DNA from: Alistipes sp.
Lineage (GTDB): Bacteria; Bacteroidota; Bacteroidia; Bacteroidales; Rikenellaceae
NCBI GenBank assembly: GCA_017631035.1
Contig: JAGBUB010000020.1
Coordinates: forward strand, 1 to 35,467
DNA length: 35,467 bases
Direction: 5' to 3'
Positions 2,768-8,013 of this stretch are shown piece by piece. Position numbers and translations under genes: made by a program. The notes below the pieces were generated by a model. The model worked only from the letters and a program-made list of their open reading frames with translations. It was not told where the DNA came from and did no database searches. The first letter of the stretch is position 1; each line of letters starts with the position of its first letter.

Positions 2768-2854
2768 TCCTGCATAGCACAATGGTAGTGCGGCAATGAG
2801 TCGGCGGTGCACAGTCGAGGAGTTGCAGGTTCGGGTTCGAGCCCCGATGCAGGA
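2768..2854 (+). tRNA. tRNA-like RNA 1, expanded anticodon arm
   Basis: An 87-nt cloverleaf. The acceptor is TCCTGCA/TGCAGGA (2768-2774/2848-2854, 7 bp). The D arm is GCAC-AATGGTA-GTGC (2777-2791) with the usual GG in the loop. The T arm is TCGGG-TTCGAGC-CCCGA (2831-2847), all paired. The anticodon arm is abnormal: GCAAT/GTTGC (2793-2797/2822-2826), then a 3x3 internal loop, then TCGGC/GTCGA with an 8-nt loop GGTGCACA (2806-2813). It is 34 nt instead of 17. If the loop were read conventionally, T2808 would be U33 and GCA the triplet, but a normal decoding tRNA seems unlikely. No CCA is encoded. It lies 22 bp upstream of the transposase start inside the early operon. Confidence 0.6.
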
Positions 2855-2876
2855 TCTAAACAAAAAGAGAACCACA

Positions 2877-4907
2877 ATGGAGTTTTACGGTAAGATAATA
2901 GCGGTTACGGTCCAAGACCTTACAAGAGCTGACGATGGCGAGGCTGTGATGAGTCTCTCTGTGTACAAGTGGAATGCCAGCAAGGGTAATTTCAATGTGC
3001 TGCGTCAGGGCAAGGGTCTTGGCTCGTATGCTTTGATAGAGTACAGTTCGCTACCATTGCGCTTCCGTGAGCGTTTCGAGGCGAAGTATGGCGACCCAGA
3101 AACCATAATGAAACGAGAGGAGATATCGCTGCCCCAAGATATGGCAGCGCAGGAGTTTTTCCGCACTCATAAGCTCGCCAATGGCGAGAGTATTCCAGAG
3201 GATAAGCAAGAGGAGTACATCATCAACGCACGAGTGCTTAATGCTCTCCGAGACTCGCTCAACACACAGAAGGCAATGCGCCGAGCGTGCAACAATAACA
3301 CCCCGGTTATTTGGGCTAATATCTTCGCACAGGCGGAGCAACTTCGTGAGGTGTACAATCACACCCTCCCAAAGAGCGAAGCTCGTCTGCGTGATAAGTT
3401 GCGCCAATATGCCAGCGAGGGTTACATCTGCCTCGTATCTGGTAAGTTCGGCAATGGCAACACCTTGAAGATAACCAAGGAGGCAGGTCGTCAGATTATC
3501 GCCCTGCGCCGTTGCCATATTCCTGTCTATACAACACAGCAGATCCTCGAAGAGTTCAACCGTATAGCAGAGCGTAAGGGCTGGAAACCGCTACGCTCAA
3601 AGAACGCTCTGTTGTCATATCTGGAACGCCCCGAAGTTAAGCCTTTGTGGTATGATGCAGTGTATGGTGAGTACGAGGCTAAAAAACTCTTTGCTCGTCA
3701 GCACAAGACCGAGATGCCGATGGTACGCGATGCCTTGTGGTATGGTGATGGTACGAAGCTCAACCTCTACTATAAGGCATACGAGGGCGGAAAGTTGGTA
3801 ATGCGCTCGGTACAGGTCTATGAGGTCATTGATGCGTATAGCGAGATGCTGCTTGGATATCACATCAGCCAAACCGAGAACTTCGATGCTCAATATCGAG
3901 CTTTCCGTATGGCTATTGAGACCGCTGGACACAAACCATTTGAGATTGTAACCGATAATCAGGGCGGTCAGAAGAAGGCTATTGCAAAGCAGTTCTTCTC
4001 ATCAATCTGTCGAGTAGCCCGTCCAACAGCCCCATATAATGCACAGGGCAAGAGCATTGAGTCTGTATTTGGTAGGTTCCAGCAGCAGGTACTCCATAAG
4101 GATTGGCGATTTACAGGCGGTAATATCTCGTCAAAGGAGGCGTGGAAAATCAACCGAGAGTTCATCGAGGCTAACAAGGAGCAGTTATACACATACGAGG
4201 AGTTGATGGTGGCTTATGCTACGGCTCGTCAGGAGTGGAACGCCTCGGCTCATCACTCAACAGGTATCGCTCGTGAGAAGATGTATAGGGATAGTGTAAA
4301 CCCCGAGGCGGTGGCAGTATCCGAGCACGATATGGTGGACCTGTTCTGGATTCGCACAGACCGCCCAAGCGTGTTCACAAATGGCGGTATCAAAATTCAA
4401 TATCAGAAGCAGGAGTACACCTTTGAGGTGCTTACCGAGGATGGTATGCCTGATATGGAGTGGCGTAGTCGTAACACAGGGCGAGAGTTCTTTGTTCGCT
4501 TCGACCCGCAGAAACTTGACCGTGCAATGCTCTACACCGAAAACCCTATGGGCTTACGCTTTGAGACAATGGCATACCCATACCTCACAATACACAGGGC
4601 AATACAAGAGCAGCAGGAGGGCGAAATGGACTTTATCCGCTGGAATGATGAGGCTAACAAGCGTGAACGCATACGCCGACAGGTGGAGGCTCACGCTCTC
4701 GAAATGGAGCACGGTGTTGCTCCTGAACAGCGAGGACTTCGTACCCCTGCAGCCAAAGGTATATCAGAGAGAGAATACGAGCGCCTTGCTGACTCTCTGG
4801 TAGTGGTACCAGCCGAGCAGAGTATTGAGCCGATATCGTTGGGAGAATTCACCAAGGCGGTCAGCAATATGGACTACGACCCTATGGCAGCATTGAACAG
4901 ACTTTAA
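2877..4907 (+). CDS. Mu A-type DDE transposase
   Basis: The 676-aa transposase that joins phage ends to target DNA. The ATG at 2877 is chosen because an upstream in-frame start would run through the tRNA-like RNA. Residues 1-270 hold helical DNA-binding regions. The retroviral-integrase-type core follows, with the acidic triad D291 (WYGDGTKL), D360 (IVTDNQGG) and E395 (KSIESVFGRF). A beta-barrel-like region and a charged C-terminal tail (about 590-676) follow, the part that in MuA contacts MuB. Size and order match MuA (663 aa). It is followed 16 bp later by the MuB-like ATPase. Confidence 0.95.
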   Translation: MEFYGKIIAVTVQDLTRADDGEAVMSLSVYKWNASKGNFNVLRQGKGLGSYALIEYSSLPLRFRERFEAKYGDPETIMKREEISLPQDMAAQEFFRTHKLANGESIPEDKQEEYIINARVLNALRDSLNTQKAMRRACNNNTPVIWANIFAQAEQLREVYNHTLPKSEARLRDKLRQYASEGYICLVSGKFGNGNTLKITKEAGRQIIALRRCHIPVYTTQQILEEFNRIAERKGWKPLRSKNALLSYLERPEVKPLWYDAVYGEYEAKKLFARQHKTEMPMVRDALWYGDGTKLNLYYKAYEGGKLVMRSVQVYEVIDAYSEMLLGYHISQTENFDAQYRAFRMAIETAGHKPFEIVTDNQGGQKKAIAKQFFSSICRVARPTAPYNAQGKSIESVFGRFQQQVLHKDWRFTGGNISSKEAWKINREFIEANKEQLYTYEELMVAYATARQEWNASAHHSTGIAREKMYRDSVNPEAVAVSEHDMVDLFWIRTDRPSVFTNGGIKIQYQKQEYTFEVLTEDGMPDMEWRSRNTGREFFVRFDPQKLDRAMLYTENPMGLRFETMAYPYLTIHRAIQEQQEGEMDFIRWNDEANKRERIRRQVEAHALEMEHGVAPEQRGLRTPAAKGISEREYERLADSLVVVPAEQSIEPISLGEFTKAVSNMDYDPMAALNRL

Positions 4908-6832: not shown

Positions 6833-7289
6833 GAGAAAACGCAACTATTCAAGGTTCTACGCCTTGGCAAAGGAGAAGCACATCGACCTCGAACAGCACA
6901 AGGAGGTTCTGGTGTCGCAGTTTACAGATGGACGCACCTCATCGTTACGGGAGATGACCATTGCCGAGTACGAAGATATGTGCGACTGCCTCCAATCAGG
7001 CAAGCAGAGGGGTGAGAGCAGCGAAGCATATCAGGCAAGGCTGCGCAAAGCTCGCTCGGCGGTGCTGAACCGTATGCAGCGTCTCGGTGTTGATACCTCA
7101 GATAAGACCTTTGCGGCGGTCAATAAGTTTTGTATGAACCCCCGCATTTCAGGAAAGCCATTTGGTCTCTTGACAATAGATGAGTTGGAGGCTCTAATTC
7201 CGAAGCTCGAAGCGATACTACGCAAACCCAAGGTACGAGGTCCGATACCCATATTTTTCAACCCTAATCGTCATCAGTTACCGAGTTAG
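6825..7289 (+). CDS. GemA/Mu gp16-family protein (DUF1018-like)
   Basis: A 154-aa basic protein with the gp16/GemA core: an N-terminal helix of the type YALAKEKHIDLEQHKEVLV, then a TDGRTSSLREMTIAEYEDM segment. This matches the conserved pattern T-G-x-TS-x-x-x-MT-x-x-E of that family. GemA-type genes lie in Mu's early region and have been tied to altered host DNA topology and gene expression. The C-terminal 60 residues are helical and basic, compatible with DNA binding. Confidence 0.72.
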   Translation: MSKRKRNYSRFYALAKEKHIDLEQHKEVLVSQFTDGRTSSLREMTIAEYEDMCDCLQSGKQRGESSEAYQARLRKARSAVLNRMQRLGVDTSDKTFAAVNKFCMNPRISGKPFGLLTIDELEALIPKLEAILRKPKVRGPIPIFFNPNRHQLPS

Positions 7290-7290
7290 T

Positions 7291-7539
7291 ATGAGTAAGC
7301 CAACTATTGAAATTGATTTTAATGGACCACAAGGCAATATCTTCTGCGTACTATTAGAGGCGAACAAGGCTATTGAGAGGCTTGGCTTTACGGGAGGTTC
7401 ATTGTCTATGAGGAATGCCACCATTATCAACGCAGAGATGCGGCACAAGGTATCAAAGGCTAAAAGCTACAAGGATGCTCTAAACATCATAGAAGAGTAT
7501 GTAACAATTAAACCGAAAGGAGGGTTGCCAATGAAGTAA
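7291..7539 (+). CDS. Small hypothetical protein
   Basis: An 82-aa protein beginning MSKPTIEIDFNGPQGN; it looks like a small alpha/beta protein. I recognise no family. It begins 1 bp after the GemA-like stop. The first tRNA-like RNA of the cluster at 7549-7987 follows within 10 bp. Confidence 0.65.
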   Translation: MSKPTIEIDFNGPQGNIFCVLLEANKAIERLGFTGGSLSMRNATIINAEMRHKVSKAKSYKDALNIIEEYVTIKPKGGLPMK

Positions 7540-7548
7540 GTGAGACAT

Positions 7549-7630
7549 GGGTGGTAAAGGCATATTAGCATTTTTCCATGTGGTTGCAAGATAAAGAATT
7601 GCGATAGGGGTTCGACTCCCCAGCCACCCC
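7549..7630 (+). tRNA. tRNA-like RNA 2, degenerate D arm and 9-nt anticodon loop
   Basis: The acceptor is GGGTGGT/GCCACCC (7549-7555/7623-7629, 7 bp with one G-U). The T arm is AGGGG-TTCGACT-CCCCA (7606-7622, four pairs and one mismatch). An anticodon-arm-like stem TTGCAA/TTGCGA (7584-7589/7599-7604) closes a 9-nt loop GATAAAGAA. The D-arm region (7556-7583) does not form a normal arm and holds CCATGT, which could instead pair with ACATGG at 7545-7550. A normal 7-nt anticodon loop is not available. It was found by its strong T arm and acceptor stem; decoding function is doubtful. Confidence 0.5.
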
Positions 7631-7647
7631 CAAAACAATGTATGGTT

Positions 7648-7803
7648 ATGAAACAGTACAAGATTACAATGAAAGAGGTCGGCACAGAACGACCATTAGA
7701 GAGCTTCTACTTTGGCGATGTAAGCCGTGAGTATTTAATCGATTTTTATGGGCTAAAACAGCCCGATATTGAGTGGTACAATATAGAAGAAGTAACAGAG
7801 TAA
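7648..7803 (+). CDS. 51-aa hypothetical protein between tRNA-like RNAs
   Basis: A short frame starting MKQYKITMKEVGTE and ending at TAA 7801-7803; an in-frame ATG two codons upstream (7642) is an alternative start. The composition is that of a real protein: mixed alpha/beta, acidic C-terminus, no low complexity. Its last codons overlap the 5' end of tRNA-like RNA 4. Its function is unknown. Confidence 0.5.
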   Translation: MKQYKITMKEVGTERPLESFYFGDVSREYLIDFYGLKQPDIEWYNIEEVTE

Positions 7804-7880
7804 CCGCCCGAAGGAATCGGGGGCAGTTATCCCCAAGCAACTGCTTGCCCAGAATGAGGTTCAATTCCTTGTGGCTCTGT
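7795..7880 (+). ncRNA. tRNA-like RNA 4 (weaker candidate)
   Basis: A possible 86-nt cloverleaf. The acceptor is ACAGAGT/GCTCTGT (7795-7801/7874-7880, 7 bp with one G-U). The D-like stem is CCCG-AAGGAAT-CGGG (7807-7821). The anticodon-like stem is GCAGTT/AACTGC (7823-7828/7839-7844) with a 10-nt loop ATCCCCAAGC. The T-like loop TTCAATT (7860-7866) sits on a stem with wobble pairs. The 5' strand overlaps the stop of the 51-aa frame. Each helix is plausible but the whole could be chance; its place between RNAs 2 and 3 raises the likelihood. Confidence 0.35.
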
Positions 7881-7898
7881 TTGGCGGGTTTCCGCTGG

Positions 7899-7988
7899 GG
7901 GTAGGATAAGCCACTATGTGGAGAGGTGGCGAGGGTTTAGCCATATAACCCTTAGGCGTATTAGTAGGTTCGACTCCTGCACTACCCA
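7899..7988 (+). tRNA. tRNA-like RNA 3, 9-nt anticodon loop
   Basis: A cloverleaf of about 90 nt. The acceptor is GGGTAGG/ACTACCC (7899-7905/7981-7987, six pairs and one mismatch). The D arm is GCCAC/GTGGC (7910-7914/7926-7930) with a GG-containing loop. The anticodon-arm-like stem is AGGGTT/AACCCT (7932-7937/7947-7952) with a 9-nt loop TAGCCATAT. An 11-nt variable region follows, then the T arm GTAGG-TTCGACT-CCTGC (7964-7980). No U33 is placed correctly for a normal 7-nt loop. It lies 26 bp before the next gene's ATG. Confidence 0.55.
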
Positions 7989-8013
7989 CAACTTAACCAA
8001 ATTTTATAGTATT

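Follow-up and report, generated by a model that had tools for sequence, protein, structure and literature searches.

A tRNA-like element with a rebuilt anticodon side near the MuA gene of an Alistipes Mu-like prophage and of related Bacteroidota phages

The element and its setting in the prophage

The stretch of DNA analysed here, referred to below as the window, comprises positions 1 to 35,467 of contig JAGBUB010000020.1 of an Alistipes sp. assembly (GCA_017631035.1). It encodes a MuA-like DDE transposase, followed by a gene for an AAA ATPase in the MuB position, and an S24-type repressor on the opposite strand at 791-1477, and these three genes mark it as a Mu-like prophage carried by a Bacteroidales bacterium; uncultured Alistipes are among the named contigs bearing the closest transposases. 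The listed open reading frame of the transposase starts at 2796, within a tRNA-like element (Table 1). Matches to homologous transposases, at 19 loci with an uncut N-terminus, begin at query residues 21-28, and the ATG at 2877 is residue 28 of that frame, so this ATG, 22 nt past the end of the element, is the likely start of MuA. About 25-30 nt just 5' of the element (non-coding, ~2736-2762 of the window) are conserved in the related loci L203 and L221 and might contain a promoter or belong to the signal.

Table 1. Positions of the tRNA-like elements, their parts and the neighbouring transposase gene in the window.
Feature	Position	Strand	Sequence or basis
tRNA-like element	2768..2854	+	direct reading, ARAGORN, MFE fold, elbow score, relatives' alignment
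Acceptor stem (7 bp)	2768-2774 with 2848-2854	+	TCCTGCA / TGCAGGA
D arm (4 bp)	2777-2791	+	GCAC-AATGGTA-GTGC, loop AATGGTA
Outer stem (5 bp)	2793-2797 with 2822-2826	+	GCAAT / GTTGC, one G-U pair
3x3 internal loop between outer and inner stems		+	GAG / GGA
Inner stem (5 bp)	2801-2805 with 2814-2818	+	TCGGC / GTCGA, one G-U pair
8-nt loop on inner stem	2806-2813	+	GGTGCACA in DNA; loop GGUGCACA
T arm (5 bp)	2831-2847	+	TCGGG-TTCGAGC-CCCGA, loop TTCGAGC
A-rich 22-nt spacer, element to MuA	2855..2876	+	begins T-C-T-A; C at position 74 like host tRNA genes
MuA-like DDE transposase	2877..4907	+	homologous transposases; rve 25.6 bits, below Pfam cut-off 32.6
tRNA-like element	7549..7629	+	well-formed acceptor and T arm, irregular D arm; also in L032
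tRNA-like element	7797..7878	+	weak in window (imperfect acceptor), better formed in L032
tRNA-like element	7899..7987	+	D and anticodon arms remodelled; ACAA follows

Direct reading confirmed, at exactly 2768-2854, what had been described before: acceptor, D and T arms of 7, 4 and 5 bp, all perfect, and a remodelled two-tier hairpin of 34 nt in the place of the anticodon arm. The linkers read TA between acceptor and D arm, G before the outer stem and AGGT before the T arm. ARAGORN reported 2768-2856 under the label 'tRNA-???'. The minimum free energy (MFE) fold of the element (-37 kcal/mol, z -3.1) was equalled in none of 200 shuffles and reproduced the acceptor, the D arm and the two-tier arm, with the T hairpin closed as 6 bp and a 4-nt loop, and the elbow score of 38 compares with a maximum of 32 across 2.75 Mb of dinucleotide-shuffled sequence. 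The tRNA-like element is confirmed as real, beyond chance.

Of the parts of a canonical tRNA, the element has the 7-bp acceptor, the D arm and the 5-bp T arm with a TTCRANY loop, and lacks the 5-bp anticodon stem with a 7-nt loop carrying U33. The tRNA-model search proposed earlier as a check came out negative: Rfam RF00005 gave no match on the element at gathering score, and the element is absent from the 15 RF00005 matches at E ≤ 10 in the genome of the window. In a permissive Rfam search (E ≤ 10) the sole match on the element was an unrelated family (E 0.15). Over the whole window Rfam gave no match at gathering and sub-threshold ones only in permissive mode; no tmRNA was found in it by ARAGORN or by Rfam at gathering, the permissive match of the tmRNA model at 7607-7621 being a 15-base fragment of 8.9 bits.

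Next, we compared close relatives. The same element is present in three of the 180 genomes of the genus (G119, G122 and G141), found in a search with a relative's element to which the copies of G119 and G122 are both 100% identical; with the window this makes three distinct sequences, two of them beyond the window and from three genomes. On the alignment of the three, 94.9% of the cells pair, and 6 of the 26 pairs change on both sides (shuffle mean 1.8; 6 reached in 0 of 500 shuffles), namely 2 of 7 in the acceptor, 3 of 5 in the outer stem and 1 of 5 in the inner stem, with the D and T stems invariant. Conservation of the inner stem, which had been put forward as a check on the fold, held in part. 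The three loop-proximal pairs are always formed (two invariant, one G-C or G-U) and the fourth from the loop covaries, being C-G once, G-C once and unpaired once; on the other hand, the outermost pair is formed in only one of the three sequences, and in distant phages the arm is replaced or absent. The 8-nt loop GGUGCACA is identical in all three and contains the palindrome GUGCAC; the loop seems to resemble a retroviral dimerisation loop.

The transposase beside the element in two of these genomes (L198 in G122, L203 in G119) is only distantly related to that of the window (27-30% identity), and the reported match contains one TAG and one TAA. G169 (L223) gave a 21-base match only, and a 31-base match in G023 (L002) was rejected as a relative: there is no tRNA there and the 601 bases read look unrelated. 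A loop-plus-T-arm pattern found the copy of the window alone in 393 genomes of the order, a DNA similarity search of named phages returned no relatives and a two-part DNA pattern had no match in viral contigs; apart from the one search with a relative's element, relatives were reached via the transposase protein. The exact D-arm string of the window occurs in 11 viral contigs, and since most of these hold ordinary-looking phage tRNAs by reading, the D arm is a common tRNA sequence. Near position 1147 of the viral contig L231, on the reverse strand, lies a phage tRNA-like gene with this D arm and, by reading, an apparent anticodon loop of ~15 nt.

The window holds three further elements, all less regular and all in the intergenic stretch 7540-7990 among small early open reading frames. 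The one at 7549-7629 sits between a frame ending at 7539 and another starting at 7642. Sub-threshold Rfam matches were a weak tRNA-Sec match at 7899-7987 (15.3 bits, cut-off 47) and a weak mascRNA-menRNA (RF01684) match at 7819-7878 (13.7 bits, cut-off 42.5). The near relative L032 is without a stretch, consisting of a frame plus an element, between the first two, and there two elements stand head to tail.

Strand, position and spacing in related phages

To look beyond the genus we assembled MuA loci from viral contigs and genomes and removed duplicates, which left 138 loci (1.41 Mb). Strict T-arms, defined by five Watson-Crick pairs and a TTCRANY loop, numbered 62 on the MuA strand versus 3 on the opposite strand, and 0-1 in five shuffles; with an acceptor required as well, 64 lay on the MuA strand versus 1 opposite. 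Of 123 loci in which 700 nt or more precede MuA, 52 had an element within 2.3 kb 5' of the gene (18 of them within 60 nt) and 71 had no strict upstream element. To these 71 belong L065, L071, L134 and L136, whose MuA leaders have a related form without a TTC loop; by reading, they consist of an acceptor, a short hairpin and a CCGG-AGCRATA-CCGG arm instead of the T-loop form. A scan that accepted any 7-nt loop found two-tier leaders at a threshold of at least 22 in 25 of 127 loci (reverse strand 0, shuffles 1.2), and at a threshold of at least 21 in 33 loci versus 6 on the reverse strand and 5.2 in shuffles. In a second, order-wide sample of 28 loci, 10 strict T-arms in 9 loci were all on the MuA strand (7 plus and 3 minus as raw strands, the minus ones being L263, L264 and L272, where MuA itself is on that strand). 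The two samples are not independent: L279 and L006 are one and the same place, and element sequences of L033/L085 and L120 recur in L255 and L259.

The position relative to the surrounding genes was likewise narrow. The end of the element lay 14-36 nt before the ATG of a frame of at least 40 codons in 53 of 62 distinct elements, with random positions coming within 40 nt of such an ATG in 31% of trials. An ATG-led frame followed within 80 nt in 55 of the 62 and in 7 there was none, and for 58 the stop of an upstream frame was at most 200 nt away. The elements therefore lie between cistrons, on one strand and recurrently, as expected of tRNA-like punctuation. The gene that follows is not always MuA: of 29 high-scoring upstream elements, 12 are at most 31 nt from MuA, 13 are 419-689 nt and 4 are 1.1-2.1 kb from it, and in many phages, among them the hankyphage, the element stands ~420-690 nt ahead of MuA and is followed by a small gene. 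Among the roles suggested in the first-pass annotation, a cis-acting element in a leader is the best supported, because strand, position and start-codon spacing recur in many related phages.

A decayed, functionless phage tRNA gene would also show a tRNA resemblance without the usual decoding arm. Compensatory changes in several stems speak against decay, as does the recurrence at a fixed spacing on a single strand; we find this reading scarcely credible.

In the hankyphage p00 (L190, BK010646) the element occupies ~1767-1850 of an unannotated gap (1756-1876) and is labelled tRNA-Arg by ARAGORN; the gene after it is assigned to the ArsR family in a sister record, and the p00 relatives L192 and L244 share the unannotated element with an extended arm. 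The Elizabethkingia phage TCUEAP3 has one element ending shortly before the transposase and another at 6934; its two remaining matches, which are T-rich, are probably due to chance. One or two elements each are present in L240, L241 and L242. No T-arm at threshold was found in the stretches read of Mu and D3112 (8 kb each), Peternella (Winogradskyella, 7.4 kb) and MT835523 (L238, 8 kb), and these four phages together with the 71 of 123 loci indicate that the element is dispensable in the wider group.

All 10 transposable-phage records of P. gingivalis that we examined carry the element, which by reading ends 15-17 nt ahead of a conserved MuA ATG; at MuA, L191 is the same as L245 and L248 the same as L249. 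No RNA is listed in the feature tables of these records, and L250 and L251 have the transposase annotated from a start further upstream, which places the element inside the annotated coding sequence. The arm is short in seven of the records and long in three (L243, L248 and L249). L251 and L243 have MuA regions that are 99.8% identical and different arms, that of L243 being roughly 50 nt longer, and the sequence 5' of the element differs among L245, L247 and L251, with similarity resuming at the 5' strand of the acceptor. Both observations indicate that the element travels with MuA and that its arm is exchanged as a module. The family Alisviridae has Phage006a among its exemplars (PMC12451628).

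Constant elbow and interchangeable decoding end

Across the family the acceptor and T arm, the GG of the elbow and the 3' C persist, and the decoding end is interchangeable: it may be a hairpin, a possible pseudoknot, nothing or, rarely, a normal tRNA arm. In the 29 high-scoring elements the region from D arm to T arm is 15-50 nt long. Fourteen elements with a D arm paired in 224 of 224 cells of the acceptor, D and T stems, with 11 of 16 pairs changing on both sides; having been picked by a scan that rewards pairing, they display diversity rather than prove the fold. Interleaved stems compatible with a pseudoknot replace the anticodon arm in L070 (5922-6008), L072 (1219-1309) and L129 (2297-2388), and shuffles did as well in 12, 13 and 5 of 300 trials, respectively. 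At the other extreme, 13 of 95 distinct T-arms belong to minihelices without room for a D stem or an anticodon arm (chance 2.7%). A GG in the linker is kept in all 13 minihelices versus 42% of shuffled linkers, some of the 13 being closely related, and reads as if the D-loop/T-loop contact had been retained.

At the 3' side, 49 of 57 elements have C as base 74 and the remaining 8 have it as base 73, 6 of them with an A after it, like a register shift of one base; 15 of 15 host tRNA genes have a C after the discriminator. U at position -1 was not enriched (12 of 57 elements versus 10 of 15 host tRNA genes). An uncut leader fold that controls in cis how the downstream mRNA is translated or how stable it is, for instance via a tRNA-binding protein, would suit the narrow spacing directly 5' of start codons and the three additional elements of the window. 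The tRNA-like 3' C and the replacement by a canonical tRNA would, however, be more natural for a processing substrate, and we consider an uncut fold doubtful.

This replacement is seen in L184, where the slot of the element holds a canonical tRNA-Ser(GCU), the only one of the 29 elements to pass a test for a canonical anticodon arm that 12 of 14 scored host tRNAs passed (15 had been fetched). By reading, L005 and L272 have ordinary CAU anticodon loops, L005 having scored as non-canonical solely through the parse of its D arm. Rfam accepted several relatives as tRNA, RF00005 reaching gathering score at 6 of the 7 related element loci tested, and this, with the perfect acceptor, D and T arms and the 8-nt loop, is what a working but unusual tRNA would predict, for example the +1 frameshift suppressor considered previously. 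Against it stand the absence of a canonical anticodon arm in the window and the low pass rate of its relatives compared with host tRNAs; moreover, close relatives vary the stems and not the loop, and distant ones replace the arm. The 8-nt loop itself is borne by an inner stem behind a 3x3 internal loop, not by a normal anticodon stem, and no 8-nt loop of suppressor type was seen in the other subfamilies of the element. A suppressor role is unlikely, and an unusual working tRNA in general seems to us very improbable.

Candidate roles in the early operon

The model that we consider best, with a probability of about one half, is that the element punctuates the early operon in the manner of a tRNA and is cleaved by the tRNA-processing enzymes of the host. 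According to this model, which is drawn from sequence, the early region would be transcribed through the element and the transcript would fold a tRNA elbow between two cistrons. RNase P would cut at the 5' end of the acceptor, and after the discriminator the cut would be made by RNase Z or by a 3' activity equivalent to it, so that the upstream cistrons would be detached from the MuA cistron and the MuA mRNA left with a short A-rich 5' leader, with a possible effect on its translation or stability. Messages of Bacteroidota rely little on Shine-Dalgarno pairing, and for this reason a cut leaving such a leader would make sense. The anticodon side would not be needed for cutting and could hence be replaced. 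Bacterial RNase P reads the acceptor/T helix with its elbow and the 3' C. PMC11143913 reports that it also cuts tmRNA, phage C4 RNA and operon mRNAs. We favour punctuation because the constant part of the element is what RNase P reads and because RNase P is reported to cut transcripts other than tRNA. Also in its favour are the strand bias, the intercistronic spacing, the 3' C, the canonical tRNA in the slot of L184, the relatives accepted by RF00005 and the link of element and MuA in P. gingivalis phages. Against it count the loci and named phages without an element, the lack of enrichment of U at -1 and the many phages in which a small gene, and not MuA, comes next.

Two observations are left unexplained by processing alone, the identical loop GGUGCACA and the exchange of arms among P. 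gingivalis phages, and they keep a second reading alive. The element could be a natural tRNA scaffold: once cut out, it would persist as a small, stable RNA and work in trans through its exchangeable domain on the anticodon side, possibly as a decoy for defence proteins that cut or bind tRNA or by pairing with another RNA; two GGUGCACA loops could form a kissing dimer via GUGCAC. Consistent with this are the identity of the loop in three distinct sequences whose surrounding stems covary, the different arms beside nearly identical MuA regions and the pseudoknot-compatible stems of three relatives. Conversely, minihelix forms have no such domain, the position tied to start codons suggests action in cis, and targets of the loop are not in excess in the window (23 near-matches versus 27.6 expected). 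We regard the scaffold as possible but less probable than punctuation. More speculatively, both could apply: transposable phages of Bacteroidota would carry a tRNA scaffold with swappable cargo, excised by the host from the early mRNA as an RNA stabilised by its elbow. Its modules would target defence, lysogeny or host RNA in trans, and the cuts that free it would also define where the transposase mRNA begins. The cargo would then be a palindromic kissing loop in the window and pseudoknots or long branched domains elsewhere, a combination that we offer equally tentatively.

The punctuation that we propose has a parallel in mitochondria, whose polycistronic transcripts are punctuated by functional tRNAs; there, too, tRNA folds between cistrons are cut out by tRNA-processing enzymes. 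The marks described here differ in that nearly all are without a decoding arm and belong to DNA phages, and their cutting is a proposal. The mascRNA-menRNA of MALAT1/NEAT1 is likewise a tRNA-like fold within a longer transcript and is processed by RNase P and RNase Z, but it is eukaryotic and located at a 3' end, and we claim no homology. Phage-encoded tRNA genes share the acceptor, D and T arms and a host-like 3' trailer starting with C, whereas the elements are without the decoding arm and have a fixed strand and place by early genes. The C4 RNA, operon mRNAs and tmRNA, as treated in passages of PMC11143913, similarly offer tRNA-like helices to RNase P; they are single cases, while the phage elements form a recurring family of one group with exchangeable arms.

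We found the family annotated nowhere that we looked. The titles and opening parts of abstracts of the open-licence PMC papers surveyed contain no description of such elements, no word beginning with tRNA was counted in the main text of PMC12135933, which describes the hankyphage, and the excerpts of PMC10367356 mention tRNA for integration sites. Tools that search for tRNA genes will list some of the elements as odd tRNA genes. If our reading is correct, a widespread and so far unannotated RNA family is present in gut and oral phages, including the hankyphage, and these phages would have borrowed tRNA maturation as a means of ordering their early gene expression. The range of forms, which begins with a whole tRNA, continues with rebuilt arms and ends with a bare elbow minihelix, would then amount to a natural deletion experiment on what tRNA-processing enzymes need.
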